This document shows positions 2,528 to 40,203 of a stretch of 64,000 nt of DNA, in pieces (position 1 is the stretch's first letter; every line of letters begins with the position of its first letter). The stretch is from Victivallis sp. Marseille-Q1083 (GTDB lineage: Bacteria; Verrucomicrobiota; Lentisphaeria; Victivallales; Victivallaceae), in NCBI RefSeq assembly GCF_903645315.1, contig NZ_CAHJXL010000002.1, positions 637,480 through 701,479 on the forward strand. The letters run 5' to 3'. The notes beneath the pieces are model-generated. The model was given only the letters and a program-made list of their open reading frames with translations, ran no database searches and was not told the origin of the DNA. Position numbers and translations under genes: made by a program.

Positions 2528-4129
2528 ATGAAAATTTGCAGGACGCTGGTCGGTGTGGGGGCTGCCGGGATGGTGCTTCTGGCCGGCTGCAAATCTTTCG
2601 ATGAGTATCAGGATGATCGTATCGCCTACGCGGTCAAACACTTCGAACGGGCCCAGTACAGCAACATCGATTCGGAGAAGGTGTTGACTTTGAACAAGTG
2701 CGTCGCCCTTGCGGTCCAAAATAACCTCGACCTGAAGGTGTTCGGGCTCGAAGAAAATGTGGCGAAAGAAATGCGGACCAGCGAGATGCTCGGGATGCTG
2801 CCGGAGCTCAACGTCTCCAACAACCTCACCGGCCGCACCAACACGCCGGCCTCAAGCAGCCAGCAACTGCACGGCGAAGGCTCCGGCACGTACAGTTATT
2901 CGCAGAGCCAGGCCCGCAACGTCAACTATCTCAATGTGGATCTGGCGCTCAGTGTGCTGGATTTCGGGCTGGCGTTTTTCAACACCCAGCAGGCGAATGA
3001 CCGGATGCTGCTGCGGCAGCAGATTCCCCGCCGCGCCGAACAGAATCTGGTGCTCGATACCGTGCGTGTCTATTTTCAGGTTGCCGCCGCCCAGCGGGCG
3101 ATCGACATAACCACTAGGCTGCTTGAGGATTGCAAAGATCGCTACGAACTGATCGAGCAGATGGGTGAATCGGGGCAGATCTCGCCGTTCCGCGCCTTTG
3201 ACGAGGTACGTCAATTCATCGATATGGAAAAACGGCTTACGAATTACATCCGCAGTTACGACAATTCCTGCGTCGAGCTGCGTTCGTTGCTCGGGCTCTA
3301 TCCGAACACCCGGATCAAGGTCGATGATTCAATTCTCGACCAGGTGCCGGAATTCACTTTACCGGAAATGGAATTGATGGAGCAGATCGCGCTGATGAAG
3401 CGGCCGGAGCTGTATGAAATCGACATGCAGAAGCATATCAACGTTCTTGAATGCCGCAAGACCATTGCGATGATGTTCCCGAATGTGCGGATGTTCGTGG
3501 ATTTCACCAATTCGGACAACAGTTTTCTGTATCATTCCGCCTGGTGGGAACTCGGTATCCGCGCCGCTTATAATCTGTTGAGGCTGCCGCAGCAGATTTC
3601 CCGTTACCAGGCTTACAGTGCGCAGGTCGACGCGGAAGAGGCGAGGAGCTATGCGCAGGCGATAGGAGTGATCGCGCAGGTGCGTATCGCCCACGCGGAT
3701 CTGGTTTCGGTCAAGGAGCGTTACAACATCGACGTGCGGGTCAATGCGGCCTATCGGAAGAATCTGGCGAAGGCCGAGGCCAGCGATGAAATTTCCGGCG
3801 AACTCTCGCAGTTGGAACTTGCGCACATGCGTCTGGCCACCACCGAAACCGAGATCGAAAAATATCTGTCGCTCGGCAACTATTACGTCTCTTATTTCCG
3901 GTTGTTGAATACGCTCGGAATAGAGGATCTGCATGCGGCGACGGTGGAAGGGCTGAAAAATCAGTTGGACGAAGAACGTATCCGCGCCGAAGCCGAGTTG
4001 GAAGAGGCCAGGGCGGAATATGAGTCCGAACAGGCCAATGTGGAAGCCGATTCCGAACAGGCGGAAATAACCGAAGCGGAAGAGCAGCTCGACGTTGCGG
4101 TTTCTCCTCCGACTGAGCCTGCCAGATAA
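2528..4129 (+). CDS. TolC-family outer-membrane efflux lipoprotein
   Basis: 533 residues. A lipoprotein signal peptide ends in LLAGC (Cys21). The body has the long alpha-helical hairpins of outer-membrane factors (about residues 50-470). The C-terminal 60 residues are a Glu-rich coiled coil (ELEEARAEYESEQ) with a Pro-containing end. AAGGAG lies 7 nt before the ATG. The family forms the trimeric outer-membrane/periplasmic exit duct of tripartite exporters. The gene ends 11 nt before the giant exoprotein gene and shares its strand with two HlyD-like adaptors and an M50/HlyD fusion, so it is probably the duct of that export machinery. The acidic tail is unusual for TolC proteins. Confidence 0.85.
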   Translation: MKICRTLVGVGAAGMVLLAGCKSFDEYQDDRIAYAVKHFERAQYSNIDSEKVLTLNKCVALAVQNNLDLKVFGLEENVAKEMRTSEMLGMLPELNVSNNLTGRTNTPASSSQQLHGEGSGTYSYSQSQARNVNYLNVDLALSVLDFGLAFFNTQQANDRMLLRQQIPRRAEQNLVLDTVRVYFQVAAAQRAIDITTRLLEDCKDRYELIEQMGESGQISPFRAFDEVRQFIDMEKRLTNYIRSYDNSCVELRSLLGLYPNTRIKVDDSILDQVPEFTLPEMELMEQIALMKRPELYEIDMQKHINVLECRKTIAMMFPNVRMFVDFTNSDNSFLYHSAWWELGIRAAYNLLRLPQQISRYQAYSAQVDAEEARSYAQAIGVIAQVRIAHADLVSVKERYNIDVRVNAAYRKNLAKAEASDEISGELSQLELAHMRLATTETEIEKYLSLGNYYVSYFRLLNTLGIEDLHAATVEGLKNQLDEERIRAEAELEEARAEYESEQANVEADSEQAEITEAEEQLDVAVSPPTEPAR

Positions 4130-4140
4130 CGAGGTGTTTC

Positions 4141-7100
4141 ATGAAAAGTGAATTTGATCTGTTTCGGTTGGAAGACCGGGTATTGTTCGAAGCGGCGGCG
4201 GCGGTGGAAATCGTCGAAGCGGCGGAAGCAGCGCACGACGATCCGAACGCCAATGTGAACCAGGGTGAAAAACAGGCGCAGGACGACCGGGACGCGTTGA
4301 AGAACGCGCCGCCGGAGAATCCGGCGGATCAGGCGCTTCACCATGACGCCGGCGACGCGCCGGACGATCCGGCGCACAACGCCGATGTGGATGCGCTGGT
4401 CGATAAAATCATCAACGGCGACCTGCCGGTGATCGACGATGCGGCGCTCGATCACGGCGTTGACCACGGCGTCGGCCCGGTTATCGACCATGGTGTCGGC
4501 CCGGCGCTCGACGATCTGCTGCATCCCGCCCCGGTCGATGGCGACCATCTGGTGCTGAACGACCACGGCGAATCCGTCTCGACCGGCAAGGAACTGGTGG
4601 TCATCAACTCTTCGGTCATGGACGCCGATGCGATTCTCGGCGAACTTGCGCCGAACCAGGAGGTGCTGCACCTCGATTCCGGCTCCGACGCGATGGACCA
4701 GATTCTCGACTATCTGAACTCCTCCGATACGCATTACGACGCGATTCACATCGTTTCGCACGGCAATGACGGCTACTTCGTGCTGAATGGCGAGGTGGTT
4801 GACGGCGATCACTTCGATGCCGCCGAATGGGCCGCGGTCGGCGAACACCTGACCGACCACGGCGATATTATGATTTACGGCTGCGACCTGGCGAAGAGTG
4901 ACGCCGGGCAGCACCTCGTCGACATGATCGCCGACGCCACCGGCGCGGACGTGGCGGCGAGCACCGACGCCACCGGACTGGGCGGCGACTGGGACCTCGA
5001 ATTCCATCATGGCGTGATTGAAACCGCCAGCATTAGCGTATCCGGTTACGAATACCAACTGCACAACATTCAGGTGACCAGCGGCCTGAACGACGGCGTC
5101 GGCTCCCTGCGCGACGCGATCGGTCAATCCCATTCCGGCGATGAAATCACCTTTGCCGACTCCGTTGGCAAGGTTACCCTGACTTCGGACATCTCGATCG
5201 ACAAAGACCTGACCATCAGCGGGGACCGATTGAGTTACACCGTATTGGAGGGCAACGGCACCGACGATATTTTACGGATCGACGGTTGCACCACTACGGT
5301 GACGCTGGAGAATTTGGCGTTTCACAACGGCGGCGACGGCGCGATTTGGAATAACGCAACGCTGAACATCACGCATTGCCTCTTCAGCGGCGATTCCGGC
5401 GACACCGGCGGCGCGATTCACAATCAGGTTGTGGTGAACATCAAAGATTCCGTTTTTACCGACAACTCCGCCACCTCTGGCGGCGCCATCGGCAATTCCG
5501 GAATATTGAATATCACAGGGACCACCTTCAGCGGCAATTCCGCCTCGGAATGCGGCGGCGCGATTTACAATACGGCGGGGAACAATGGCGGAACCGTCAG
5601 CAATTTCGGGACTCTCATACTGGTGAATTCCACGGTTTACGGCAACCGGGCGGAGGGTAACGGCGGCGGTATCTATTCCGGCTCCAATAGCGGAAAGGTG
5701 GCCGTGGTGAACTCCACGCTGGCGGGAAATTCGGCCCAGAAAGCGGACAGCGGAGGCGGCATCTATATGGATCCGGGTTATAATAATGCCAATCTCGAAG
5801 TGATCAACAGCATCGTCGTCGGCAATTATACCGGGGACGATCCCACCGCCGCGAACGATATCGGGGGGGAAGCCGCCAAGTTCTCCCGCTCTTTCCTCGT
5901 ATACGGCGTCATTACCATGACGTCCAGCATCTCGGACGGCGAAAGCAATATCGCGTCCGACGTCGATAAAACCTTTCATGCCAAATGGGACAAGGACAAC
6001 ACCTCCGGAAAGTGGGAGCTGGTCGACCGGAATGACGAAATGCCGATCTTCCAGGACGGAATGGTAAAAATTTATGCCGACAGCGTTGGCGCGATCGAGG
6101 GCACGCTGGTCGGCTGGAAGAAAAATTCGGGCCCGGCGGATTTCAACAAACTCTGGGAAGGCAATTTTTACTACCGCTCGAGTTGGAGCATCGACTCCGG
6201 TAGCTGGGTCTCTATGGACGGCGGCGGCAACATCGACTTCATTACGACGGTGGGAGCGGTCAATTTCGGGCTCGGCGACAACGCCGTGGCGCTGATGTTC
6301 GCTGCCGGGCAGAACGGTATCTCCCGGACTGACGTTTCCAGCTACAACATCGGCGCTTACGCCTTGCAGGCCCATAAGCCCGATATCGTGGTGAACACCA
6401 ACCTGGACTCCGCCTCCGATCATACCAATCCGTTCGACGACGTGACCACCCTGCGGGACGCGATTCAATACGCCGGGCGCGCCTCGTGGTTTGTTCTCGA
6501 TAAAGACAACCAGATAACGGAAGTGTTTATGCCGGGCAATGAGGTCAGGTTCGACAAGGCTTTCTTCACGACTGATCCAAACCACAAGAAAACCATCGTT
6601 CTGGACCGCAAAATCCAGATTCTCCGGGAAGACCACATCCGGATCGCCGGAGTGGATCAGGACGGCAACGACCTGGTCGACGCGAACGGTGAGTCGTACA
6701 TCGTCATCGACGGCGGCGGCATAAACCGGATCTTCGAGATCGGCAACGGGAACCGCGCGACGGATGTGGCCATGTACAATCTGATCCTGCAGAACGGCCA
6801 TGCCAATGGCGTCGGCATGACCAAGGGCGGAGCAGTCTTCAACTGGTTCAACAGCAAGGTGGACATCGACCGGGTAATCTCCCGGGACAACGAAGCCCAG
6901 ACTGGCGGCGCGATTTACAATGCCGGAACGCTGAGCGTTACGAATTCCATCTTCAGCGGCAATAGCGGCGACAACGGTGGCGCGATTTACAATGCCGGAA
7001 CGCTGACTGCGGAAAACATCAACTTCAATACCAACCTGGCAGCCCGTGACGGCGGCGCGATTTACAATACGTCGGCAGGTACGTTGACTATCAATAGCGC

Positions 7101-7692
7101 CACCTTTTCCAAAAACACAGTCATGGGAAGCGGCGGCGCGATTTTTAACGACGCCGGCCGGGTGACCGTGGCGAATTCGACATTTTACGATCAGAAGAGC
7201 GCCGGCGACGGCGGCGCGATTTACAACAACAAAGGCCGGCTTACGGTGGTGGGTTCCACCTTTTACCACAATACCGCCGGCATAGGCGTCCGGAGCGAAG
7301 GCGGCGCGATTTTCAGTAACGGCGCCGCCAGCAGGCTGGTGCTGGTCAATTCCATCCTCGTCGGCAACATCGCCGACGTGGCCGCCGCCAACGACCTGTC
7401 GACGCAGAATGCCGAACTCGACCTCTACTATTCCTTTTACGGGCAGCTGTCGGGAAATATCGGCAAGGGCGTCGCTTCCTGGGGGAAGATCAAAGTGAAG
7501 GATGTGTTCGGCGATTCTCCTAGTCCGGCCGAGAAAGAAATCAACGGCGTGAAGCAGATTTATTTCGAGCTGAAAGACGGGGTGGATGCCGTCACGATGG
7601 GTACGAAAGTACAGGTGGACGGCGGCGGTTTTCTGCAGTATTACTACATGGATGGCCCGTTCAAATGGGAAACCCTCGGCGCGATGCGCTGA
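4141..7692 (+). CDS. Giant secreted beta-helix exoprotein, part 1 (N-terminus and DUF4347)
   Basis: The first 1,183 residues of a giant protein that continues in two other frames to 16153. The N-terminus FRLEDRVLFEAAAA (residues 8-21) matches the LEPR-XLL-like motif seen at the start of large exported PVC proteins. An Asp/His-rich linker follows (30-145), then a DUF4347 domain (about 150-305) with HIVSHG (His207) and IYGCD (Cys248). From about 310 come right-handed beta-helix repeats of the GGAIYN.GTLTV..STFSGN type, like chlamydial polymorphic membrane proteins, and two SLRDAI/TLRDAI modules. The frame is lost at about 7681-7686 where GCGATGCGCTGACC lacks one base compared with the repeat copies; without that loss it would run straight into the next segment. 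Likely a surface adhesin or exopolymer-binding protein. Confidence 0.8.
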   Translation: MKSEFDLFRLEDRVLFEAAAAVEIVEAAEAAHDDPNANVNQGEKQAQDDRDALKNAPPENPADQALHHDAGDAPDDPAHNADVDALVDKIINGDLPVIDDAALDHGVDHGVGPVIDHGVGPALDDLLHPAPVDGDHLVLNDHGESVSTGKELVVINSSVMDADAILGELAPNQEVLHLDSGSDAMDQILDYLNSSDTHYDAIHIVSHGNDGYFVLNGEVVDGDHFDAAEWAAVGEHLTDHGDIMIYGCDLAKSDAGQHLVDMIADATGADVAASTDATGLGGDWDLEFHHGVIETASISVSGYEYQLHNIQVTSGLNDGVGSLRDAIGQSHSGDEITFADSVGKVTLTSDISIDKDLTISGDRLSYTVLEGNGTDDILRIDGCTTTVTLENLAFHNGGDGAIWNNATLNITHCLFSGDSGDTGGAIHNQVVVNIKDSVFTDNSATSGGAIGNSGILNITGTTFSGNSASECGGAIYNTAGNNGGTVSNFGTLILVNSTVYGNRAEGNGGGIYSGSNSGKVAVVNSTLAGNSAQKADSGGGIYMDPGYNNANLEVINSIVVGNYTGDDPTAANDIGGEAAKFSRSFLVYGVITMTSSISDGESNIASDVDKTFHAKWDKDNTSGKWELVDRNDEMPIFQDGMVKIYADSVGAIEGTLVGWKKNSGPADFNKLWEGNFYYRSSWSIDSGSWVSMDGGGNIDFITTVGAVNFGLGDNAVALMFAAGQNGISRTDVSSYNIGAYALQAHKPDIVVNTNLDSASDHTNPFDDVTTLRDAIQYAGRASWFVLDKDNQITEVFMPGNEVRFDKAFFTTDPNHKKTIVLDRKIQILREDHIRIAGVDQDGNDLVDANGESYIVIDGGGINRIFEIGNGNRATDVAMYNLILQNGHANGVGMTKGGAVFNWFNSKVDIDRVISRDNEAQTGGAIYNAGTLSVTNSIFSGNSGDNGGAIYNAGTLTAENINFNTNLAARDGGAIYNTSAGTLTINSATFSKNTVMGSGGAIFNDAGRVTVANSTFYDQKSAGDGGAIYNNKGRLTVVGSTFYHNTAGIGVRSEGGAIFSNGAASRLVLVNSILVGNIADVAAANDLSTQNAELDLYYSFYGQLSGNIGKGVASWGKIKVKDVFGDSPSPAEKEINGVKQIYFELKDGVDAVTMGTKVQVDGGGFLQYYYMDGPFKWETLGAMR

Positions 7693-10600
7693 CCACGGCG
7701 CAGCTCCAGCACGACCAGATCGGCAGATCGCGGCAGCTCCATGATTCGTCCGAAGAGTACAGCGTCGGCGCGATTTCCATGATCCGGGAAGACGCGTCGC
7801 TCACCGTCGATACCGTCCTGGATGTGTTGGACCCCTACGACGGCGTAATCAGCCTCCGCGAAGCGCTGGCTTATGCCGCGGCGGGAATCACGGAGACGGA
7901 CGGCACTTTCACGGTCACTTTCGCAAATTCGCTCGGTTCGAACATCGTCATCACGCTCGACCCCGCGCTCAAAGCCCTGACCGTCGATTCGGCGTTGTTT
8001 ACGAAAGATGCCCCGCTGACCATTGACGGTGAAGGGCGGGTCACCCTTGATGGCGGTCATACGGACAGTTCCGGCGGTAGCCAGCTCCTGAATATCGCCG
8101 CCGGCAATTTTGTTTTCCTCAACAATATGACCTTTCGGAACGGTTATGCCGGCGGTGACGGCGGCGCCATCACCAATACCGGGACGCTGAATATTAAAAA
8201 TGTCAACTTCAACCATAACACGGCAGTTGGCAACGGCGGCGCGATTTACAGTGAGGCGAGAAGCAGTCTGACCATAAATACCGCCACTTTCCGCGAGAAC
8301 AGTGGGGGCTCCGGCGGCGCGATTTACAATGCCGGGACGCTGACTGTGGCGAATTCGACATTTTTCGGGAATGAGGCTGTTGTCAATGGTGGGGCGATTT
8401 ACAGCGGCAATGCCTCGCTGCTGGTGGTGGGAACCACCATTTACGATAATACCGCCAACAAGGGCGGAGGGGTTTACAGCCCCGGCATCGTAATAGCGGT
8501 GAATTCCATTTTCGTCGGCAACCGCGACAGCGTTAAGGGCGATTTCTATGTGGGTCAGGCTGACCTTTACTATTCCTTTTATGGCGGGCTGTCAGGGAAA
8601 ACCGGTACGGCCACCGGTTCCCGGGGAAATATCAAAGCGTCGGATGTTTTCGGCGACTCTCCAACTCCGGCCGGGAAAGTAATCAACGGCGTAACGCAGA
8701 ACTATTTCGAGTTGAAGGATGAGGCGGTGATCGGCATGGCGGGTACGAAAGTACAGGTGGACGGCAACGGTTTTCTGCAGTATTACGACATGACGGATCC
8801 GGGCAACCGCCGGTGGTACACCATCGGCGCGGTCGCGCTGACCACGGTGCAGCTTCAGGGCGACCAGATTGGGCGGTACCGTTTGACGGCGGATTCGTTT
8901 TTCAAGTACAGCCCCGGCGCGGTCCAGCAGCAGCTGTCGCTCACCGTCACCACCGATCTGGATGTGGTGAACCCCAATGACGGCCTGATCAGCTTGCGCG
9001 AAGCGCTGGCCCATGCCGCGATGGGATTCACGGCGGCGGACGGCAGTTACACGATCACTTTCGCGGATTCGCTCGGCTCGGAGATCACCATTACGCTCGA
9101 CGGCACGCTCGGAGCATTGAGCATCGATTCGCCGCAGTTTAAGACGGCTCCCTTGACCATTGAGGGCGGCGGGCGGGTCGCTCTCGACGGTGGCGGAGCT
9201 ACCCATATTCTGGAAATCGCCGCCGACAATCGCGTTTCCCTCAACGGCATGACCTTTCAAAACGGTCGTAGCGGCGGCGATGGCGGCGCGATTTATAACG
9301 CCGGTACTCTGAGCGTGACCGGCGCCGCGTTCACCGGGAATATGGCGGACGGCGGTGGCGGCGGGGCGGTTTACAACACCGGGTCGCTGGTGATCGCGAA
9401 CGCCTCCTTTACCGGAAATTTGGCCGGCGTCGGCGGGGCGATTTACAGCAACGGGCTGCTGACGGTGGTGAATTCCACCTTTTACGGAAATGGGGCGAAC
9501 GACGACGGCGGCGCGATCTACTTCAACGGCGACACGAAGTTCGAGCTGACGGTGGCCGGTTCCACCCTGACCGGGAACATCGCTAATGGCGGCGGCGGCG
9601 GAATCTTCGTCCGGAGCGGGGCGATAACCCTGGTCAATGACATCATTGTCGACAATCTTTCCCCGGCTGACGGGAAAGATATCCATAGCAATGGCGACAT
9701 CACCGCCATCGGTTTAGTTTACGGCACCGCGGTCGGTTCCTTCGTGACCGAATGGCACTCTTATTCCAATGTTCAGGCCAGCCAGATTTTCACCACCAAA
9801 ACACCTTCGATCCGGGTGGTCGACGGGATCACCCAGAGCTATTTCGAGGTCAAGAATACGCCGGATGTCAAGGTCACCAGCGCGGGAACGAAATTGCAGG
9901 TGGACGAAAACAGCGGCAATTTGCAGTATTACGATATCGAAAATTCGAGCTGGGTGAACCTCGGCGCGGTCACGCTGACCACGGAGCTGGTGCAGCACGA
10001 CCAGATCGGCCGGGCGCGGATGATGTACGATTCCTCCTCGGAGTATGGCATCGGCGCGATCTCCATGCACCGGGAAACGCCGTCGCTCACGGTCAACACC
10101 GATCTGGACCTCGTGGACCCCTACGACGGCCGGATCAGCCTGCGCGAAGCGCTGGCCTACGCCGCGGCGGGGACCCGGGCGTTCGACGGCAGTTATACGG
10201 TTGACTTCGCGAATTTGTTCAGCGGAACCATCATTATGCTCGATCCCGCGCTCGGAGCATTGACGGTGAAAGCCGGGAGCTTTGCGGCGGATGACCCGCT
10301 GATCATCAACGGCAACGGCGAAGTCACCATCGTTGGCAGCGGGTTGACGCAGCTCTTCGTCATCGGGCGGGACAATGAGGTCCGGATGAACGTCTTTACT
10401 TTGTCGGAGGGGTTCGCCGAGGACGGCGGCGCGATCTACAACGCGGGCAGCCTGACGATGAACCGTGTGACGTTCAACTCCAATTCCGCTGATAACGGTG
10501 GCGCGATTTACAATGCCGGGACGCTGACGATCACCAATTCCACCTTCAGCAATAACGCGGCCGGCATCGCCGGCGGCGCGGTTTACAATGCCGGGACGCT

Positions 10601-13600: not shown

Positions 13601-15236
13601 CGGCGATACCCTGAGCGTCAGCACAACCGGCACTTTCGCCGATAAGAATGTTGGAGTTAATAAGGTTGTTACCTTAGGTACGCTCACCCTTGGCGGCACT
13701 GATGCCAGGAACTATGTGCTCGCCGGCGCTGGCCAGCAGACCACGACGATCGCGACGATTACGGCGCGTGCAATTACGGTCAGCGGCATCGCGGCAGACG
13801 ACCGTACTTACGACGGCACCACCGCCGCCACACTCGATTACACCAACGCGGTGCTGACCGGTAAGCTGGCCGGCGATACCCTGAGCGCCAGCACGACCGG
13901 CATTTTCGCCGATAAGAATGTTGGGGTCGACAAGGTAGTCACCTTAGGTACGCTCACTCTGAATGGCACCGATGCCAGGAACTACGTTCTCGCCGGCACT
14001 GGTCAGCAGACCACGACGACCGCGACGATTACGGCGCGTGCGATTACGGTCAGCGGCATCGCAGCAGACGACCGCGTCTACGACGGAACCACCGCTGCCA
14101 CACTCGACTACACGAATGCGATGCTGACCGGCAAAGTCGCCGGCGATACCCTGAGCGTCAGCACCACCGGCACTTTCGCCGACAAAAACGTTGGAGCCGA
14201 CAAGGTTGTCACGTTGGGCACTCTCACTCTGAATGGCACCGATGCCAGGAACTATGTGCTGGCCGGCGCTGGCCAACAGACGACGACAACCGCGACGATT
14301 ACGGCGCGTGCAATTACGGTCAGCGGCATCGCGGCCGACGACCGCGTCTACGACGGCACCACTGATGCGACGCTCGATTACACCAATGCGGTGCTGACCG
14401 GCAAAGTTGCCGGCGATACCCTGAGCGTCAGCACCACCGGTAGTTTCGCCGATAAGAATGTTGGAGTCGACAAGGTAGTCACGCTGGGCACGCTCACCCT
14501 TAGCGGCACCGATGCCAATAACTACGTGTTTGCCGGTACCGGTCAACAGACCACGACGACCGCAACAATCACAGCGTGTGCGATTACGGTCAGCGGCATC
14601 GCGGCAGACGACCGCGTCTACGACGGCACCACCGCCGCAACACTCGATTACACCAACGCGATGTTGTCCGGCAAGTTGGCCGGCGATACCTTGAGCGTCA
14701 GCACAACCGGCACTTTCGCCGATAAGAATGTTGGGGTCGACAAGGTTGTCACGTTGGGCACTCTCACTCTGAATGGCACCGATGCCAGGAACTACGTTCT
14801 CGCCGTCACCGGTCAGCAGACCACGACCACCGCAACGATTACGGCGCGTGCGATTACGGTCAGCGGCATCGCGGCAGACGACCGCGTCTACGATGGCACG
14901 ACCGCCGCGACGCTCGATTACACCAATGCGGTGTTGGCCGGTAAGGTCATCGGCGATACCCTGAGCGTCAGCGCCACCGGCGTTTTCGCCGATAAAAACG
15001 CCGGAGTTGGAAAAACCGTCAATTTAGGTGCTTTGACCCTTAGCGGCGCCGACGTGGGCAACTACATTCTTGCCGGTACCGGTCAGCAGACCTCAACGAC
15101 CGCAACGATCACGCCGCGGGACATTACGGTGACGGCGGATGAGCAAAAAAAAATTGGGGGAACCGCCGATCCGGAATTGACTTACCAGCTCACCGAAGGC
15201 AGTCTGGTCGATGGCGACGGTTTTCCGGCGAACTGA
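7665..15236 (+). CDS. Giant secreted beta-helix exoprotein, part 2 (SLREA modules and YDG repeats)
   Basis: Second frame of the giant gene; coding really continues from about 7683, so the apparent internal ATG at 7665 is not a true start. Five modules of about 380-420 residues each open with a CSLREA-like sequence (for example DGLISLREALAHAA), run through GGAI beta-helix repeats, and close with a DQIGRxR...YSIGAI linker resembling the choice-of-anchor Q ending. They are followed at residues about 1950-2490 of this frame by six YDG (haemagglutinin-type) repeats of 90 residues, and then the start of an MBG domain. The frame ends at 15236 because one base is missing near the T4 run at 15221-15224; the next frame completes the MBG domain. 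Confidence 0.78.
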   Translation: MGNPRRDALTTAQLQHDQIGRSRQLHDSSEEYSVGAISMIREDASLTVDTVLDVLDPYDGVISLREALAYAAAGITETDGTFTVTFANSLGSNIVITLDPALKALTVDSALFTKDAPLTIDGEGRVTLDGGHTDSSGGSQLLNIAAGNFVFLNNMTFRNGYAGGDGGAITNTGTLNIKNVNFNHNTAVGNGGAIYSEARSSLTINTATFRENSGGSGGAIYNAGTLTVANSTFFGNEAVVNGGAIYSGNASLLVVGTTIYDNTANKGGGVYSPGIVIAVNSIFVGNRDSVKGDFYVGQADLYYSFYGGLSGKTGTATGSRGNIKASDVFGDSPTPAGKVINGVTQNYFELKDEAVIGMAGTKVQVDGNGFLQYYDMTDPGNRRWYTIGAVALTTVQLQGDQIGRYRLTADSFFKYSPGAVQQQLSLTVTTDLDVVNPNDGLISLREALAHAAMGFTAADGSYTITFADSLGSEITITLDGTLGALSIDSPQFKTAPLTIEGGGRVALDGGGATHILEIAADNRVSLNGMTFQNGRSGGDGGAIYNAGTLSVTGAAFTGNMADGGGGGAVYNTGSLVIANASFTGNLAGVGGAIYSNGLLTVVNSTFYGNGANDDGGAIYFNGDTKFELTVAGSTLTGNIANGGGGGIFVRSGAITLVNDIIVDNLSPADGKDIHSNGDITAIGLVYGTAVGSFVTEWHSYSNVQASQIFTTKTPSIRVVDGITQSYFEVKNTPDVKVTSAGTKLQVDENSGNLQYYDIENSSWVNLGAVTLTTELVQHDQIGRARMMYDSSSEYGIGAISMHRETPSLTVNTDLDLVDPYDGRISLREALAYAAAGTRAFDGSYTVDFANLFSGTIIMLDPALGALTVKAGSFAADDPLIINGNGEVTIVGSGLTQLFVIGRDNEVRMNVFTLSEGFAEDGGAIYNAGSLTMNRVTFNSNSADNGGAIYNAGTLTITNSTFSNNAAGIAGGAVYNAGTLTVENADFNANTTQQNGGGIFNAAECSLTVNGATFRHNIAENFGGAIYNAGTLTVANATLFENSADRDGGAIYNTGTLTVVGATFFKNEAGGNGGAVYSIGKLRLANSILAGNTGGEDLYADGVAEGYYSFIGSMQGAFTRNVANHFNVTPEEIFGDRPAVSTTKINGVTQSYFELKDSAPAVTAGTKLRVVGGNLQYYDMTAIYRWADIGAVALSTAQLQYDQIGRARLTRDLLAAYSIGAISMLKENPSLIVTTDQDVVNPYDDVISLREALAFAAAGIRAADHTYTITFADSLAGSAIEIDGKLASLTVAAGAFTILNPLTIDGGGRITIDGGRSSTRVCPLEIGADNYVFLNGLIFEDGGNAKGLGGAIINAGNLTVTNTTFTGNGISGQRGGGAIYNTGNLVIDNAAFIGNQSSEGGGGAIYNTGSLVVNNATFSRNLADTNRGNSGGGAIWNSNGQVVVANTTFTGNRTNGKGGAIYAENGTLVVLNSTITQNNGKKDGSGIYCDSAELAIANSIILGNTGSTNIKVDGNNGFSAVYLVTSETPQKTPDYSDHNFFDCQDDPFTDGNPRKRTVNGVEQLYFEVKDVSVVETTTDGTKLRSYYGKNGCDIEYYSKDSSNWQTLINYLKSVPTDEQFSYDQIGRDRLMYDRSQTYSIGAVNMLREQPSLTVTTDLDLVDPCDGRISLREAALYYAHSGDTVTFAGKIAAVLDHDLELKFDLNLNFGDTGASVSSGRDGIALKSEFALIVQGAAAFNHLLLSGKGDLSFTGSTDGSATVDRTGGGVIYSSADSQVVYGGTYFDLLLTGTGADGAEVKEFGGDIAVANSFDASGTANGQYLQINGNHYQLTLPKIGIVIRYTDIHDLTAAESLVLDDTNTIAGTTNIAVYLNTLFDSGKSITYGQTLSDAGSFQLSAYARGILLGGDWSFLNGTTRPQVKDSDVTSYEIILGGYYSKATLTITPKQITVSGIAADNRVYDGTTDATLDYTNAVLTGKLAGDTLSVSTTGTFADKNVGVNKVVTLGTLTLGGTDARNYVLAGAGQQTTTIATITARAITVSGIAADDRTYDGTTAATLDYTNAVLTGKLAGDTLSASTTGIFADKNVGVDKVVTLGTLTLNGTDARNYVLAGTGQQTTTTATITARAITVSGIAADDRVYDGTTAATLDYTNAMLTGKVAGDTLSVSTTGTFADKNVGADKVVTLGTLTLNGTDARNYVLAGAGQQTTTTATITARAITVSGIAADDRVYDGTTDATLDYTNAVLTGKVAGDTLSVSTTGSFADKNVGVDKVVTLGTLTLSGTDANNYVFAGTGQQTTTTATITACAITVSGIAADDRVYDGTTAATLDYTNAMLSGKLAGDTLSVSTTGTFADKNVGVDKVVTLGTLTLNGTDARNYVLAVTGQQTTTTATITARAITVSGIAADDRVYDGTTAATLDYTNAVLAGKVIGDTLSVSATGVFADKNAGVGKTVNLGALTLSGADVGNYILAGTGQQTSTTATITPRDITVTADEQKKIGGTADPELTYQLTEGSLVDGDGFPAN
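7797..12690 (+). repeat. Five SLREA plus GGAI beta-helix modules
   Basis: Module starts (SLTV or SLIV followed by SLREA about 25 residues later) lie near 7797, 8937, 10082, 11348 and 12610, at spacings of about 1.14-1.27 kb. Each of the first four carries a run of GGAIYN-type coils, then an NGVTQSYFELKD and LQYYDM stretch, then DQIGR. The fifth is degenerate and leads into the YDG region. The modules look like internal duplications of one exon-sized unit. Confidence 0.7.
13503..15122 (+). repeat. Six tandem 270-bp YDG-domain repeats
   Basis: Units start at 13503, 13773, 14043, 14313, 14583 and 14853. Each encodes 90 residues beginning ITVSGIAADDRVYDGTT and ending TTTATITARA. Units 1-5 are nearly identical; unit 6 has diverged (ADVGNYILAG). 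YDG repeats form Ig-like stalks in large haemagglutinin-type adhesins. The near-identity at DNA level suggests recent expansion or gene conversion, and the copy number may vary between strains. Confidence 0.85.
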
Positions 15237-16153
15237 CGCGCGACGCCGGTGAAAAGGCCGGCGATTACGCGATCCGGCAGGGAACGCTGACGGCCGGCGG
15301 CAACTACAACTTAACCTATGTTGGGGCCAACCTGACCATTGTGGCGAAGCCGGTTTTTGACTCGGGTATCTATTCTTCCGGGTTGAATCCGAATTTTGCC
15401 TCCGCGCTGATCACCGACAGCGTCCGGGCGGAGCTGAAGAACTTGCTGACCTCGTTCGCGGGCGACAATTTCAAGCTGCTGGGAATCAACAGCCTCCCCG
15501 CCGCGCTTTCATTTTACGATTACTTGAGTGATATCGGTGACGGCATCGAATGGAACAACATTAATTTTACCGATTTTGCCCACGATGCGACGATCCAGCG
15601 GCTCTTTGGACAGGTGACGGACTACCTCGGGCTGGATCGCAATCAAGCGACTTGGTCACCGAGGCTGATCTACGCGTTGAATCATTTGAAAGCGGACGTT
15701 GAAGACCTGCTGGGAATCAACAGCTCTGCGGAATTGTACGAGAACGGCAATATTTCCTACGGGCCGGACTATTCGTTCAGAAGCCCGGTGGTCCATACGA
15801 TGGGCTTCGGGACCTTCATCGGTGTGAGAAACTTCAGTCCTTACCGCACTCCTATCGATGATGTTCCGGGAATTGCAAACTCGGATACTCTGCTTCCGAA
15901 CATGGCGCTGAACGGTGCGTCCGGACCGGCGGAAGATGTGATCAGCATCCCGGGCGCAGAGAACACCGGCTTCCGGTATCTCGCGCCGGAGATGCCGCCG
16001 ATCAAGCCGGGGCGGAACGCCCAGTTAGCGGATGCGGAGCTTCAAAAACTGTTACGTGATTTCGGTCCGGTTCGTGGCGATGCGCTGTTGGAAAAGAGCC
16101 GCGCCTTCAAGAGCGAATTTGAACTCCTGTTGGACGAGCTGGTGACCGCATGA
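15227..16153 (+). CDS. Giant secreted exoprotein, part 3 (end of MBG domain and C-terminus)
   Basis: Third frame of the giant gene. Reading starts after the second frameshift with GELTRDAGEKAGDYAIRQG and GNYNLTYVGANLTIV, which is the second half of an MBG domain. A non-repetitive C-terminal region of about 270 residues follows (starting KPVFDSGIYSSGL and ending ELLLDELVTA). An isolated GTG at 15341 could be called as a start but lies inside the MBG sequence. The C-terminal region resembles no family I recognise. It may act as a cell-surface anchor or as the export signal read by the adaptors encoded next. The stop TGA overlaps the next ATG (ATGA). Confidence 0.7.
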   Translation, partial: GELTRDAGEKAGDYAIRQGTLTAGGNYNLTYVGANLTIVAKPVFDSGIYSSGLNPNFASALITDSVRAELKNLLTSFAGDNFKLLGINSLPAALSFYDYLSDIGDGIEWNNINFTDFAHDATIQRLFGQVTDYLGLDRNQATWSPRLIYALNHLKADVEDLLGINSSAELYENGNISYGPDYSFRSPVVHTMGFGTFIGVRNFSPYRTPIDDVPGIANSDTLLPNMALNGASGPAEDVISIPGAENTGFRYLAPEMPPIKPGRNAQLADAELQKLLRDFGPVRGDALLEKSRAFKSEFELLLDELVTA

Positions 16154-16866
16154 AGAAACTCGGCGTTATAGGCGGATTGTTCGCTGTGCTGTTGCTCGGA
16201 GCAGCAGAGCATCCGGTGGTGAAAGCGGTGCTGTTCCCGTTCCGCGAGGCGGTGATCGCCGCGCGGGTCGATTCGGCGTTGGAGCCGTACCGGTTCAAGC
16301 TCGGCGAACCGTTCAAGGCGGGCGACACGCTGGTGACGCTCGACACTTCACGATATGCGATCGAGGAAAAACGAGCGCATGATCAGTTCGATTTCGCCAA
16401 AGCGAACTACGAGGACAAGAAACTGCTGCGGGCGAAAAACTTCACCAGCGATTTCGAACTGAAAAAGTCCGAGTACGATTTTCGTCAGGCGGAGAACGCG
16501 CTCGCCGATGCGCAGTTGAACGTTTCGTTTTGCACGGTAAAAGCGCCGTTTGCCGGCAAAATCGTCGAGTTTCTGACCCGCGAATACGAGACCATCCGCC
16601 CGGGGCAGCCGCTGTTCCGGATCATCGACGACAACCAGTTGCTGGCGGTGATGAATGTGCCGATGGACGACAAGGCGCTCTGTACGGTCGGGAATTCCGT
16701 CACCATCGCCATAACAGGGGAAAACCTGACCGCGTCCGGACGGATTTATGAGGTAACGCCGCAGGCTGATCATCGCACCGGGACGGTGCGCATCCGGGTG
16801 TTGATCGACAATGCCGCCGGTCAGTTCAAGGCCGGCATGACCGGAGAGTTGATTTATGGCCAATGA
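16150..16866 (+). CDS. HlyD-family periplasmic adaptor (membrane-fusion protein)
   Basis: 238 residues, shorter than typical RND or ABC adaptors (350-450). It has an N-terminal hydrophobic segment (residues 3-18), a split biotinyl-lipoyl domain (KLGEPFKAGDTLVTLD and CTVKAPFAGKIVEF) around a short coiled-coil hairpin (about 75-125), then beta-barrel and membrane-proximal parts (GQFKAGMTGELIYG). The family bridges inner membrane and TolC in tripartite exporters. Its ATG overlaps the stop of the giant exoprotein, and its own stop is overlapped by 11 nt by the next gene, so the genes are probably translationally coupled. Confidence 0.8.
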   Translation: MKKLGVIGGLFAVLLLGAAEHPVVKAVLFPFREAVIAARVDSALEPYRFKLGEPFKAGDTLVTLDTSRYAIEEKRAHDQFDFAKANYEDKKLLRAKNFTSDFELKKSEYDFRQAENALADAQLNVSFCTVKAPFAGKIVEFLTREYETIRPGQPLFRIIDDNQLLAVMNVPMDDKALCTVGNSVTIAITGENLTASGRIYEVTPQADHRTGTVRIRVLIDNAAGQFKAGMTGELIYGQ

Positions 16867-18196
16867 GGAGTTTGCCGCCCGGCTGAAGGCCTTCGCGTTG
16901 ATGCTGAAATATGGTCATGACCTGTTCGGCGCGAAAAATTTCAGCGACGCGGCGGCGATGGCGGTCAGCAACAGCCGTTCGCTGTTGAATTTTCGTACCG
17001 CGACACTGCTGGAACTCTCCGGCGGTAAATCGCGGGTGATCGCGCAGTACGGCCAAGTGGAAGTCAATCCGCACTCCCGGCTGGCGGTTTTGCAGAACAA
17101 ATTGGCGGAAACGTTGAAATTCGGGAACGAACCGCTGACCGTGAGCAGGGATAACGGCCTTTCCACTGAGCTGGCCGAACATGACGCGGTTTATTTATGC
17201 CTCAAACTAACGCCGCCGCCGAATGCGGCCGAAATTGATTTCGTTTTCATCTGGCTGCTGGAATATGAAAAAGAGGTTCCGGGTTTTGCCGCTAACACGG
17301 CGAAATTGCTGGGCAGCTCCATTTCCGAGGCGCTCTACTATCAGCGCCTTTGCAAAAGCCGTCTGACCGGGGTGAGACGGCAGGTAAAAAAACGATGGAT
17401 GTGGGCGGCGGCGCTGATGATTCTCGCCGGGGCGATGTTCATCCGGGTGCCGGAAAACGCCACCGCGGAATTTACGCTGAAAGCGCCGGAAATCACCAGC
17501 TCTTATGCCTGGTTCGACGGCCCGATCGCCAGATGCCTGGTTCAGGACGGCGATACGGTGACCAAAGGCGAGCTCATCGCCGAATACGACACCGCGCAGT
17601 TGAGCTACCGCCTCTCCAGCGCCCGCAGCGCGCTGCGGGAGATCGAAACTGAGCTTGCCCTGGAACAGCAGAACGCGTTTACCGATCAGGACCGCCTCGG
17701 CAAAGTAAAGCTCCTCGAGGCCCGGCGCGACACGGTGAAAGTATCGGTTGAAGAGGCCGAATGGTATCTGGAGCATTCGCAACTTCCGGCGCCGGCGGAC
17801 GGTATTCTGGCTTTGACCGACGGGCGTGCCGAATTGCTGGCCGGCAAAGCGGTCCGTACCGGCGACAAGCTCTTTGAGGTATTCGGTGGCTCCGGCATGG
17901 TTGCCGAGATTCCGGTCAACGAACGCGACGCCTCGATTTTGCGCCGGCAATTTGACGCGACTTTGTTTTTACATACGGCACCTGAGACGGCGATTCCGGT
18001 GGAAATTCTGGAGGTTTCGCACTATCCGGAGCTGACCGAACAGAAGACCTACTGCTATCGGGTCCGGGCGAAACTGCCGGACGGCCTGACCGGCCTGCGC
18101 TATGGTATGCGCGGCATCGCCAAGCTCTCCGGCGGCAAGGTTTCGCTCGGTTACCGGTTGTTCAAGAGTGTCGTTCTTTACTTCCGGGGATTGTGA
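16856..18196 (+). CDS. GAF-like / transmembrane / HlyD-type adaptor fusion
   Basis: 446 residues. Residues 1-165 are soluble and resemble a GAF-type sensor fold (helix, then LLNFRTATLLELSGGKSRVI and FVFIWLLEY). A single membrane helix follows at about 180-197 (WMWAAALMILAGAMFI), then an HlyD-like periplasmic part with lipoyl halves (VQDGDTVTKGELIAEYDT; LPAPADGILAL) around a coiled coil (about 245-305) and a beta-barrel. It would place a ligand- or signal-sensing domain in the cytoplasm and an adaptor in the periplasm. It overlaps the previous gene and ends 1 nt before the next ATG, so it is a firm member of the operon. The GAF assignment is from pattern only. Confidence 0.7.
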   Translation: MANEEFAARLKAFALMLKYGHDLFGAKNFSDAAAMAVSNSRSLLNFRTATLLELSGGKSRVIAQYGQVEVNPHSRLAVLQNKLAETLKFGNEPLTVSRDNGLSTELAEHDAVYLCLKLTPPPNAAEIDFVFIWLLEYEKEVPGFAANTAKLLGSSISEALYYQRLCKSRLTGVRRQVKKRWMWAAALMILAGAMFIRVPENATAEFTLKAPEITSSYAWFDGPIARCLVQDGDTVTKGELIAEYDTAQLSYRLSSARSALREIETELALEQQNAFTDQDRLGKVKLLEARRDTVKVSVEEAEWYLEHSQLPAPADGILALTDGRAELLAGKAVRTGDKLFEVFGGSGMVAEIPVNERDASILRRQFDATLFLHTAPETAIPVEILEVSHYPELTEQKTYCYRVRAKLPDGLTGLRYGMRGIAKLSGGKVSLGYRLFKSVVLYFRGL

Positions 18197-18197
18197 C

Positions 18198-20270
18198 ATG
18201 GCCGCAACCGAACCCGAACTGCTGACCGGTATTTTGCGGACGGACGTCGAGGTGATCCGCGGCGACCCTCCACTGCTTTTCGACCGCCAGGCGGACACTT
18301 ATTACAAGATCTCTCCCACGCTGCTCGATGTTCTGGCTTTCCTGAACGAATCGGAGCCGGTTTCGGTGTTTCTGGAAAAACTCAACCGCAACGGCATTCC
18401 GGTAACGCGGGAAGAGCTGATGCGGCTGCTGGCTTTTCTGCAGCAGAACAATCTGTTGGCTCCGGAATACGGACACATCGGCGTCAAACGCGAAAGACAG
18501 GCAGAAATGCGGGAAAAAACGGCGTTTCTGCGCTTCTCCGCCGCATATCTCTTTTTCAAATTCCCGCCTTGGCGGCCGGAACGGTTCTTTGACAAAATCA
18601 GCCCGTATGTCAGTTGGCTCGCTTCCCGGCCGGTCATCCTGCTGCTGCTGGTTCCCGCGCTGCTCGGCTATCTGCTGCTGATTCGTGATTTCGGCGCGGT
18701 ACGGGCCACCTTTTTAGATTCGCTCTCGTGGGCCGGGTTGGCCAAATATTTTGTCGCGATTCTGTTCCTGAAATTCATCCATGAGGCGGCGCATTCGCTG
18801 GCCGCGATCCACTTTCACTGCCGGGTGCGCGGCATCGGGCTTGGCTTCATGGTCTTTTATCCGCGGCTCTACACCGATACTACCGACAGTTGGCGGCTGC
18901 CGCGCCGGCAGCGGCTGCTGATCGATTCGGCGGGCATCATCATCGAGCTGCTGCTCGGCGGTTGTGCGGCGCTGCTCTGGACCTACCTGCCACCCGGCGC
19001 GTGGAAGTCGACGATGTTCTACGTTTTCGCCGTGAGTTTGATCTCGACGCTGTTCGTCAACGGCAACCCCTGCATTCGTTACGACGGCTATTATATCCTC
19101 TGCGACCTGGTCAACATTGAAAATCTGATGACCCGGTCGGGTGAATATGTCAAACAGTTCTGGCGCTGGTATTTTCTGCGCCTGGGCTCCAAGCCCGACC
19201 ACCCGCGCGGTGCATTTCTGCTTTGTTTCGGCGTCTGTTCGTTCATCTACCGCATTTTTCTTTATACCTCGATCATTCTGGTGATCTATCACAAATTCGT
19301 CAAGGCGGTGGCCATCGTAATGATGATTCTTGAACTGTACAGCATTCTGATCTATCCGTGCTGGCGGGAGATTCAGACGGTGAGGGCGCTGTCAAAACGC
19401 TCAGCCAACCGGGCGCGCCGATTTCTCGGCGGCGGGCTGCTGGTGGTTCTGGCGGCGATCCTGTTTTTGCCGCTGTCGTGGAACATCACCTTGCCGGGAG
19501 AGACCGTTCCGGCGGAACGGCTGCTGGTAACGGTGCCGGAGGGTGGCTATCTGACTGGCGATCTGCCGCGCCGAGCGCGTCCGGTACGTGAGGAAGAGAT
19601 GCTGTTCCGGCTCGAATCGCCGCAGTTGGACAGCGCAATCCGACGCCTGGTCGGAACCTTAAAATACGATGAAACGCTCTATGCGCTTCAGCAGCTCGAT
19701 GAGAATAAGTTTTCCGAAAGCCGGGTGACGGCCGAAAAGATCGCTTCCGATCGTCTGAGTCTGGCCGAATTGCTCCGGCGCCGACACAGCCTAACCGCCC
19801 GCGCCGGCACGGCCGGTATCTTCGTGTCGGAATTACCGGATTTGTCGGCCGGAGCGTTTCTGGCGAAGGGCAGGAAAATCGGTGAAATCGTTTCGCAGGA
19901 GCCGTTGCTTTACGTCTACGCCCAAGACCGGGATCTCGGCAAATTGAAAGTCGGAGACGTCGCTGTCGTGACGTTCCGGGATACCCTGGCCTCCTGGCCA
20001 GCGGAAGTCACGGCAGTTGATCAGATATCGACCCGGTTGGAAAATTCGCCGCTGCTTCAGCATTTCGGCGGCCCCATTCCGGTCTATTTTGAAGCGGAAA
20101 AAAGCAATTCGTATACGTCGGTACTCGCCTTGTACCGCGTGACGCTGCGATTTACCGGCCAACCGGATATCGACTGCGGCCGGGTGGCGACTGTCAAGAT
20201 TTCACATCGGGAACGACTATGGAGCCGTCTGAAGCAAACTGCACTTTCGATTGTTCATCGGGAGTTTTGA
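18198..20270 (+). CDS. PqqD-like / M50 metalloprotease / HlyD fusion membrane protein
   Basis: 690 residues from ATG 18198, 1 nt after the previous stop; an in-frame ATG at 18102 lies inside the previous gene and is rejected. Residues 15-90 resemble a PqqD winged-helix peptide-recognition domain (YYKISPTLLDVLAFLNE). A polytopic membrane part of the site-2-protease type carries HEAAH (195-199) and NPCIRYDG (290-297), the HExxH and NPxxxxDG zinc motifs of M50. Several helices follow to about 430, then a short HlyD-like periplasmic part (about 460-690). Proteins of this make-up occur beside HlyD adaptors in exporters lacking an obvious ATPase. It may recognise, cleave or conduct the exoprotein at the inner membrane. 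That role is inferred. Confidence 0.75.
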   Translation: MAATEPELLTGILRTDVEVIRGDPPLLFDRQADTYYKISPTLLDVLAFLNESEPVSVFLEKLNRNGIPVTREELMRLLAFLQQNNLLAPEYGHIGVKRERQAEMREKTAFLRFSAAYLFFKFPPWRPERFFDKISPYVSWLASRPVILLLLVPALLGYLLLIRDFGAVRATFLDSLSWAGLAKYFVAILFLKFIHEAAHSLAAIHFHCRVRGIGLGFMVFYPRLYTDTTDSWRLPRRQRLLIDSAGIIIELLLGGCAALLWTYLPPGAWKSTMFYVFAVSLISTLFVNGNPCIRYDGYYILCDLVNIENLMTRSGEYVKQFWRWYFLRLGSKPDHPRGAFLLCFGVCSFIYRIFLYTSIILVIYHKFVKAVAIVMMILELYSILIYPCWREIQTVRALSKRSANRARRFLGGGLLVVLAAILFLPLSWNITLPGETVPAERLLVTVPEGGYLTGDLPRRARPVREEEMLFRLESPQLDSAIRRLVGTLKYDETLYALQQLDENKFSESRVTAEKIASDRLSLAELLRRRHSLTARAGTAGIFVSELPDLSAGAFLAKGRKIGEIVSQEPLLYVYAQDRDLGKLKVGDVAVVTFRDTLASWPAEVTAVDQISTRLENSPLLQHFGGPIPVYFEAEKSNSYTSVLALYRVTLRFTGQPDIDCGRVATVKISHRERLWSRLKQTALSIVHREF

Positions 20271-23148: not shown

Positions 23149-23540
23149 TAACTCATGAAAATCCGCACTAGAAGAAATTTGAACATAGTAATTGCCATCT
23201 TCTGTTATATGACCATCCCAGTTGAACAAGGCAAAAAATTTGCTCTCTTTTTGCCAATTCAAAAAAATTCGAACTTCCTTCATTAACTCCCGTAACCGCG
23301 GAACAACCAATGGATTCTCCCGCCCCAATGAAGTTTCCTCCGGCAGATAGACAAACCAAGATAAAAGCGGCTGGGAAAGTGAACGAAAATCATGATCATA
23401 CTTCAATTTTCGATTTAGAATAATACCAATACTTCTACCGGGTACATTTCCATCAGAAAATATTGTTTGAACTAAATGTTTCTGACGAAGAAAATTCTGT
23501 TTTGCCTCTTTCAGCTTATTGCTTGCAACAGCTTCTCTTA

Positions 23541-24652: not shown

Positions 24653-25493
24653 TATCATTACATCATCTTCGAATATTCCATTCTCCAAAGCCTGATGTTT
24701 GCTTACTGAAATAACTTTATCCATTAAATATGCACGATGCCCCCACTGAATATAATCTTCCAGATATTCACCCATACGGTCCCGACTGGAATACAACGCA
24801 CATTCTTCCAGACAGTCATCTTGAAATGCTTCCGCAGCCCAGGGGGCGTCACACACCAGAACCTTACCTGTACTTTCCGGAGACAAAATATTTTGTTCGA
24901 GCTCTCCAAATACAACGACAGCTGTTTCTCCCGGCAACAATACGGTTTCCGGAGGAAATTCGTAACAATGCTCCTCACTATCCCACAACGTCCAGCCGCT
25001 GATATCGACCTCACTTTTGGCGGTATTCTGCAGCTCAACCATCATCGGACCGGCATCGAGAGTCGGCTTCAACGTAATCTCACTCAAACGCACACCTTCT
25101 CCCAATAAACAGCATGCGCAACAAAGGACAGTCAACAATCCAATCGTTATCTTCATTTTTCCACCTCATAGCCCATATAATCAGGATGATCCGTCAAATA
25201 TACGGAAGTATTCCAGTAATCAGCTTTCGACCACTCGCTTACGCCGGACGCATTTTCATATCGCACCCGCCAGTAGAAGCAAACCGGAGCAGTTTTAAAA
25301 ATATATTCGGGAATATTAACTTTTTCCTCTTTCATTATTTTTTTAAATAATGGATCCTCTGCCACTTGTAAACGGAAGAAACCATCATCTTTCAATTTAA
25401 ATGCACCATATTTCCACCTCAGAAGAATCGTAATTCTCACATGATCTAATTCTGATGGTGAAACTAAAACACTTTGTCCTTTAAAAGAATTAA

Positions 25494-28506: not shown

Positions 28507-28536
28507 GACTTCACTCTTTCTTTGATAAGTCTTCTA

Positions 28537-29749: not shown

Positions 29750-29776
29750 TACTTCATAATCAACATAATATACTAA

Positions 29777-33120: not shown

Positions 33121-33124
33121 AATT

Positions 33125-34138: not shown

Positions 34139-34177
34139 ACCTTCCTTTGATAGAAAATAATCTTTATTCGAAATTAG

Positions 34178-34704: not shown

Positions 34705-34754
34705 ATAAGCCTTTAAAAAAGTGAAACGATGTTTGTGAATCGTACCTCGTCACC

Positions 34755-39147: not shown

Positions 39148-39245
39148 CGTGAAATTATCCTGAATTTTCAATATTTGAAGTAGCTTCCCGCCATATTTCG
39201 CGGCGGGAAGCGCGGCGGCGGATCATTTGCCGGATGGCCCGCCGT

Positions 39246-39977: not shown

Positions 39978-40097
39978 GACAATTTCCCTTTCCGTTGTTC
40001 AATGGTATTGTTATGGTTTGTTTCCGGGTTGCGACCTCTCCGCCTGACGGTATCAACATCTCTTATGATATGTTTAAACTTTGTTATCATTATAGGA

Positions 40098-40126: not shown

Positions 40127-40203
40127 TCCCCGGCGGTTTTTTTTCAGAAAAATATTGTTTGGCCGGTCGGCCGGGGACTACGCCCGGATCCTCCGCGGCC
40201 GGT

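Follow-up and report, generated by a model that had tools for sequence, protein, structure and literature searches.

Type I secretion systems are exemplified by HlyB-HlyD-TolC and LapBCE, and they share an adaptor, a TolC-type pore and a giant repeat-rich cargo without evident Sec signal with the locus described here. This locus is a five-gene cassette in a 64-kb stretch of the genome of Victivallis sp. Marseille-Q1083 (G000:C2:637480-701479; this whole stretch is called the window in the following), a gut bacterium, whose genome of 4.82 Mb is assembled in five contigs and is 99.7% complete. In contrast to type I systems, no HlyB-type ABC (ATP-binding cassette) exporter was found in the window, three adaptors are encoded, two of which are fused to a GAF domain or to an RRE domain (RiPP recognition element; RiPP: ribosomally synthesized and post-translationally modified peptide) with a site-2 protease (S2P), and the cargo carries a conserved N-terminal tag.

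The closest described system is a module of SecA_DEAD, Peptidase_M50, GAF and HlyD proteins published by Kamneva, Poudel and Ward (2015; PMC4452313), who, in the parts of the paper covered here, propose SecA as the ATPase and the M50 protein as a possible pore, standing in for an ABC transporter. Both that module, as far as it is described in these parts, and the window encode an M50 protein with HlyD domain, a GAF protein with HlyD domain and a further HlyD protein, and both are without ABC transporter; the published module sometimes includes an OEP protein. The class of cassette is not new, as its SecA-linked version has been in print since 2015; the paper names Methylobacterium extorquens AM1 as a carrier of that version. 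Unlike the published module, no SecA paralogue was found in the locus or genome of the window, the cargo is linked and tagged, and RRE and MacA folds are predicted. A text search of PMC4452313 returned neither DUF4347 nor Victivallis, and the parts covered name no cargo. The present analysis adds a branch without SecA, the tagging of the cargo and a predicted fold that combines reader, cutter and adaptor. Thus, the system is real, recurrent and little studied, yet a variant of a module printed in 2015; among the other papers listed in the literature searched, with preprints and most subscription journals outside its scope, none appeared from its title or the opening of its abstract to describe it, and none of those listed dealt with the mode of cell exit of giants of the LEPR-XLL or DUF4347 type.

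We read the locus as an apparatus dedicated to the export of a single giant surface protein; the apparatus belongs to a two-branched family, and no motor gene of its own was found in this branch. This reading is given a probability of roughly 45%. Export of the linked giant by the cassette, taken by itself, is considered probable. The co-occurrence described below offers a testable answer to the question of cell exit, consisting of tag, reader, cutter and conduit, and would join two fields with little contact so far, the recognition of leader peptides, as described for small peptides, and the export of giant adhesins.

The M50 fusion, its adaptors and the tagged cargo

The five genes all lie on the + strand and encode, in this order, a TolC-type lipoprotein, the DUF4347 giant, a HlyD adaptor, a GAF/transmembrane (TM)/HlyD protein and the M50/HlyD fusion. 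The junctions are an 11-nucleotide (nt) gap, a 4-nt overlap, an 11-nt overlap and a 1-nt gap, with the start of the M50 fusion set at the ATG at 18198. Pfam matches and coordinates agree with the gene content, strand, order and tight spacing (gaps of at most 11 nt or overlaps) given in a preliminary description of this DNA.

The M50 fusion (18198-20270, + strand, 690 residues, model pLDDT 89.7) is predicted to consist of an RRE domain (leader-binding, PqqD-like; 18219-18464, + strand), an S2P (M50) membrane protease domain (18579-19121, + strand) and a MacA-like periplasmic adaptor domain (19407-20267, + strand). The RRE was seen in the VIA-align list of Foldseek for the structure model, while it was hidden in the plain list, which is filled by adaptors. 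Its winged-helix fold matches leader-bound TbiB1 and TfuB1; these RiPP leader-binding proteins have the same fold, whereas the RRE of the window is fused to a membrane protease. The protease domain, for which the Peptidase_M50 model of Pfam gives an E-value of 4.1e-7, matches the folds of SpoIVFB and MjS2P. H196, E197, H200, N289 and D297 are invariant in 63 of 63 members, and the HExxH (18780-18794) and NPxxxxDG-type motifs (here NPxxRYDG, with the Asp at 19083-19085) lie inside the membrane domain, as in M50 site-2 proteases. The best named sequence relatives are RiPP leader proteases, namely daptide_HExxH (NF041824; 3.7e-44) and LiaK/YydH (NF058609; 5.1e-8), both under their model cut-offs. 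They share the M50 core with the fusion, and NF041824 covers its residues 23-386, i.e., most of RRE and protease. Unlike these proteases, the M50 protein of the window is joined to a MacA-like adaptor and has a giant protein instead of a small peptide as its neighbour. As modelled, the folds of RRE and S2P point to a role as tag reader and cutter rather than as motor.

The GAF protein (16856-18196, + strand, 446 residues) is predicted to contain a GAF fold, one TM helix and a MacA-like adaptor. By predicted fold, the labels GAF-like and PqqD-like assigned beforehand are correct, although Pfam calls neither domain in the proteins of the window. In both the M50 and the GAF protein, the C-terminal part matches the fold of MacA, AcrA and MexA; unlike in the systems of these adaptors, no MacB- or RND-type partner was found at the locus. 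The small HlyD/MFP (membrane fusion protein) adaptor (16150-16866, + strand, 238 residues) has an N-terminal hydrophobic segment by hydropathy and scores above the cut-off of the RND_mfp model (TIGR01730, 2.5e-35). An L-x6-S motif at the hairpin tip is expected in adaptors that contact TolC. Such a motif is present here, with L93 kept by 87% and S100 by 69% of the aligned family members, so that judging from its sequence the small adaptor fits a TolC-contacting adaptor. Against the type I adaptor model TIGR01843 the three adaptors of the cassette reach 17.1, 13.8 and 14.6 bits, below the cut-off of 208.65. A TolC-type factor as in type I secretion is present: the outer-membrane lipoprotein (2528-4129, + strand, 533 residues) matches Pfam OEP with 1.1e-19, its lipobox Cys is read in the translation at 2588-2590, and its paralogues in two further cassettes of the same genome are 45-47% identical.

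The giant cargo gene is not one open frame but is read in three frames on the + strand, with breaks near 7690 and 15235. The first piece (4141-7692, 1183 residues) contains the N-terminal tag LEDRVLF (4168-4188, + strand), the DUF4347 domain (PF14252; 4594-5031, + strand; 1e-38, 133.1 bits against a cut-off of 24.6) with its HIVSHG...YGC pair, and Chlam_PMP repeats. The second (7665-15236) holds PMP-type repeats, six YDG repeats and the start of an MBG domain, and the third (15237-16153) has a C-terminal tail ending in AFKSEFELLLDELVTA. The ORF start at 7665 is purely mechanical, the true frame break lying near 7690, and the listed ORF of the third piece begins at 15341, which does not imply a start codon of its own. 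Since repeat and domain likeness continues across both breaks, we take the cargo from its sequence to be a single gene, either truly broken or misread in the assembly. It is a single open frame in relatives (L010, 2090 residues; L012, 2499 residues) and unbroken in the two paralogous cassettes of the own genome (L004, 3102 residues; L005, 1836 residues).

The cargo had been termed LEPR-XLL-like, which holds for the resemblance of LEDRVLF to the LEPR-XLL tag and does not extend to the model of that family (NF012209, cut-off 17 bits): the cargo of the window, checked to an E-value of 10, and that of L004 are without match, and that of L005 reaches 13.3 bits. Cargo near cassettes begins with LExRxLF or LEPR-XLL. 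An LExRxLF-type motif was found within the first 100 residues of 24 of 25 DUF4347 giants with intact N-terminus, a set picked by DUF4347 alone that contains several rows from one genome, compared to a mean of 0.001 in shuffles; the pattern had been widened after the giant of L056 was missed, and the first, narrower one gives 23 of 25. The only giant without tag (L125) sits away from the cassette of its genome. The HIxSHG...YGC pair of DUF4347, present in nine of 28 frames by a strict pattern, recalls, as we assume, the dyad of clan CD cysteine proteases, and self-cleavage of the cargo is possible.

In the mechanism proposed for the dedicated apparatus, the giant, which is without evident Sec signal peptide, would present its LExRxLF tag to the cytoplasmic RRE of the M50 fusion; that the RRE reads the tag is judged slightly more probable than that it does not. 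The chain would then enter the membrane at the M50 fusion, where the S2P site may cut the tag region, for which we see even odds. The three distinct MacA/HlyD-like adaptors, one M50-linked, one GAF-linked and one free, would form a mixed ring leading to the TolC-type lipoprotein, and the cytoplasmic GAF domain might sense a ligand and gate this ring. The drive at the inner membrane would come from a machine encoded elsewhere, for which the housekeeping SecA is the leading candidate, with low confidence. Alternatively, the system could govern retention or release of an adhesin at the surface in a LapD/LapG-like manner, where GAF would sense a ligand and proteolysis by S2P would release or anchor the giant, with export being a separate matter. 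The GAF fold joined via a TM helix to an adaptor, the invariant protease site and the repeat-rich cargo would fit such a role, but three adaptors together with a TolC-type protein look like a set of parts for a conduit, and we consider a retention system improbable, a LapG-like periplasmic protease not having been searched for.

Recurrence of the cassette and the two branches of the family

The own genome encodes three M50 fusions, each accompanied by TolC, a DUF4347 giant, HlyD and GAF/HlyD genes. The two other M50 proteins are 33% identical to that of the window; in L004 the TolC and giant genes are divergent from the trio, and in L005 all five genes are in line. In named genomes the nearest relatives of the M50 protein are found in Lentisphaeria including Victivallis vadensis, whose strain DSM 14823 has M50 fusions on three contigs (L012, L019, L040). 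A scan of species genomes yielded 115 M50 relatives, 80 of which were kept for neighbourhood counts. Among the 66 relatives whose upstream flank reaches 4 kb or more, 56 have both an HlyD and a GAF gene no further than 3 kb from the M50 gene, as counted with neighbourhood profiles that had earlier been retrained on many of these very loci. Over the 80 relatives HlyD was found in 67, GAF in 70, TolC in 31, cargo marks in 24 and short SecA in three, the counts of TolC and cargo being limited by flanks no longer than 10 kb and by profiles derived mostly from Lentisphaeria. The three cassettes in one genome and the linkage in 56 of 66 relatives argue for an association that is more than chance, and the five genes form a recurrent unit with their cargo. 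All five parts, with the giant before TolC, are present in Magnetospirillum aberrantis SpK (L068), which carries the SecA-less version, and in a Magnetococcales metagenome-assembled genome (MAG; L069). In Sutterella wadsworthensis (L073) the order TolC-HlyD-GAF-M50 follows a cut frame of 1844 residues; no DUF4347 domain and no tag were detected in this frame.

Some loci show other arrangements. In strain zth2 (L055, 7438-12070) TolC, a tagged DUF4347 protein of 277 residues and the M50 fusion stand in a row, and no HlyD or GAF gene was found in the fetched 22 kb. A Planctomycetota MAG (L013, 9884-16408) carries an M50 fusion 61% identical to that of the window followed by a tagged DUF4347 giant, with neither a HlyD nor a GAF gene found at this locus; this M50/giant pair reflects either transfer or misbinning. 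In a Waddliaceae genome (L065, 3752-5329) a UCH-domain (deubiquitinase-like) protein adjoins the GAF/HlyD gene.

The cluster is not always located next to an ABC or RND pump gene. Above 100 bits, RND matches beside M50 were found in 0 of 80 relatives and ABC matches in six, the latter including L042, with its match 3.3 kb downstream, and L072, where it lies 354 nt away on the opposite strand. At a looser cut (E-value 1e-4) ABC labels appear in 13 of 80 loci, some of them UvrA-like, together with one RND-labelled frame (L027). ABC matches of about 950 residues beside the cassettes of L035 and L046 were set aside, as on reading the sequences, without a family scan, they look like UvrA, and so was the match in L034, an ABC-2-type pair on the opposite strand. 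These neighbourhoods bear on the explanation that an ordinary efflux operon stands beside an exoprotein gene by chance. Efflux systems commonly contain adaptors and OEP proteins, the score of the small adaptor exceeds the RND_mfp cut-off, and upstream of the L005 cassette there is one RND gene (C1:3533759-3536812), at a distance of about 14 kb and outside the fetched stretch. Nevertheless, no pump gene was found at the locus of the window, and the set of five parts occurs in three copies in this genome and, combined with cargo of this type, also in other phyla, which makes an efflux operon highly improbable.

The cassette family has two branches. A SecA paralogue of 615-726 residues adjoins the M50 gene in Verrucomicrobiota genomes, in Acinetobacter bouvetii and more weakly in Rubrivivax, and lies near M50 in a Pirellulaceae MAG. 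Among 194 genomes of the phylum of the window, such a short SecA (E-value below 1e-99) was found in 15, all of them M50-positive, and directly beside M50 in 14 of these, while G083 has it on another contig. A tree of M50 proteins with 65 rows, obtained by quick search with midpoint root and excluding rows below 620 residues as well as 22 loci (most meant as near-duplicates), separates a 19-row side, which holds all 11 SecA-linked rows and eight rows without linked SecA, from a 46-row side with no linked SecA, as far as the fetched flanks, some of them short, extend. The window falls on the 46-row side, which also holds most proteobacterial rows, the Desulfobacterota rows and two Chlamydiota rows. 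Counts of SecA_DEAD in 33 genomes gave two to six matches in the six with loci of the 19-row side (G220-G225). Of the other 27, 19, the own genome included, show one match, four (G207, G209, G216, G218) add sub-cut-off matches only, G194 adds a partial one, G210 and G219 (Magnetococcales, Magnetaquicoccus) have two further matches above cut-off and G211 has none.

Cargo marks follow these branches. Within the 194 genomes, 40 were hand-picked as M50-positive (match above 200 bits, five candidates scored per genome; G037 with 113.7 bits, G038 with 107.4 bits and adaptor-only matches excluded). DUF4347 is present in 25 genomes, two below the cut-off (G018, G070) being dropped, and 20 of the 25 are M50-positive (Fisher's exact test, 5e-12). 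LEPR-XLL (E-value below 1e-3; three further genomes dropped, as their short-frame matches range from 1e-3 to 1e-2) is found in 14, and 13 of these belong to the 15 short-SecA genomes (Fisher 2e-17); at an E-value below 0.01 it is found in 17, again 13 among the short-SecA genomes (Fisher 4e-15). As the genomes are related, these Fisher values overstate independence. Either cargo mark occurs in 37 genomes, 31 of them M50-positive. LEPR-XLL giants, whose frames reach 20,466 residues, track the SecA-linked version (13 of 14 genomes). Of the 25 M50 genomes that lack short SecA, none is matched by the LEPR-XLL model; the mark there is DUF4347 (16 of 25) together with the variant tag.

The motor and the points against a dedicated apparatus

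In the window no RND-like or ABC-exporter-like ORF was detected by BLAST with examples from the own genome above 50 bits, and a short-SecA profile and a scan for ABC motifs, which caught seven of eight ABC exporters of the own genome as control, matched nothing. The stretches fetched around the window and around the two paralogous cassettes likewise contained no RND, ABC exporter or short SecA. These searches agree with the earlier statement that no ATPase or RND subunit is encoded at the locus. A self-contained route in which the M50 protein replaces the motor is not supported: the other branch has a SecA paralogue beside the trio, and 4 of 80 relatives have a type I pair directly upstream. 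Outside the window, the own genome has 10 RND and eight ABC exporter matches in Pfam, and a single SecA_DEAD match in a frame of 1008 residues, with none in the window.

Several findings weigh against a dedicated apparatus of the kind proposed. The cargo gene of the window is broken in the present assembly, and Pfam PqqD does not match the M50 fusion of the window and matches only 2 of 59 members weakly (best E-value 0.0048). The first 200 residues of the giant contain no 19-residue TM-like segment by hydropathy; the best 12-residue mean is 1.99, and in the proteobacterial cargo of L068, L069 and L071 a basic and hydrophobic stretch precedes the tag, so that an unusual Sec signal is possible. 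Five of the 25 DUF4347 genomes are without M50 fusion, and of the 40 M50 genomes nine are without either cargo mark and 25 without short SecA. Furthermore, an ABC exporter with a HlyD-type adaptor is encoded directly upstream of TolC, at about 35-63 nt, in four of the 80 relatives (L018, L027, L028, L030; the Pfam scan covers the pairs of L027 and L028). In L022 and L023 an adaptor-sized frame lies upstream of TolC, and the flank ends before an ABC gene could appear. Two type I ABC/adaptor pairs are also encoded in the own genome, unlinked to the window and with no OEP match near either; the type I locus at L111 7599-13408 comprises two ABC genes (581 and 872 residues) and one adaptor in a row.

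These pairs favour the view that the giant is a type I substrate, exported by a linked or remote ABC/HlyD pump, for which the cassette provides pore and cargo, with the M50, GAF and HlyD proteins maturing or anchoring the cargo. Linked pairs were also found in G055, G094 and G150 (the genome of L028), the type I adaptor is present in 14 of 25 SecA-less M50 genomes compared to 36 of 169 others (Fisher 5e-4), and C-terminal tails similar to that of the window's cargo are conserved in other Lentisphaeria cargo. On the other hand, in 11 of the 40 M50 genomes the searches found neither short SecA nor an ABC exporter at 1e-110 nor a TIGR01843 match over cut-off, with the best four to eight candidates per genome scored for the latter two; five of the 11 are single-contig genomes (G042, G072, G099, G147, G152), and G042, G072 and G099 carry an M50 of the 19-row-side type. 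In the family of the window, 32 of 34 genomes encode a type I adaptor and 11 of 34 the cassette, and both adaptor-less genomes (G144, G147) carry the M50 fusion. As the adaptor is present with or without the cassette and the adaptor-less pair has the M50 fusion, the type I pair seems not to be required. No TIGR01843 match at 1e-25, with all candidates scored, was found in strain zth2 (G204), Waddliaceae G206, Burkholderiaceae G207 and Sutterella G214, and the ABC/adaptor pair occurs without the cassette in seven fetched loci (two of them short) of M50-negative genomes. Taken together, we regard a type I substrate as unlikely; as a general motor, a type I ABC exporter acting in trans was rejected on the 11 of 40 genomes in which the searches made found none, though it stays a candidate in single lineages.

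It was also considered that the M50 fusion itself forms an inner-membrane channel without ATPase, through which folding outside or the proton gradient pulls the chain. No motor was found at the locus, nor, in the searches made, beyond housekeeping SecA in the 11 of 40 genomes, as such a channel would predict. However, a SecA ATPase is retained in the other branch, pointing to an ATP drive, a SecA match in all 194 genomes means that a motor was never excluded, and we know of no S2P protease that is a channel; a motor-free channel is therefore quite unlikely.

For the dedicated export apparatus, the candidates for the motor remain the housekeeping SecA, a type I ABC exporter in trans, or none. 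The housekeeping SecA is favoured because each of the 194 genomes has a SecA match, because the other branch keeps a linked SecA paralogue and because much of the family yielded no type I pump, and it is tentatively proposed to drive export. The SecA-less branch makes this question directly testable. A wider reading, which we consider doubtful, is that of a separate secretion pathway across several phyla, in which an RRE would read an N-terminal LEPR-XLL-type tag on giant proteins and an S2P/adaptor fusion would cut it, replacing a pump, and in which the motor would be exchangeable, one branch using a dedicated SecA, one genus a type I ABC pair and the branch of the window no dedicated motor.

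Genes in the remainder of the window

Downstream of the cassette, the stretches 22056-36051 and 56741-59081 of the window contain transposases of the insertion sequence type (one DDE_3, two DDE_Tnp_1_4 and one DDE_Tnp_1) and three more frames of equal size (353 residues; no domain scan), with a G+C content below that of the cassette. Genes of the polysaccharide type are located at 36850-54071 and include GH3, two GHL15 genes with a weak third one, DUF4838 and a URO-D family gene.

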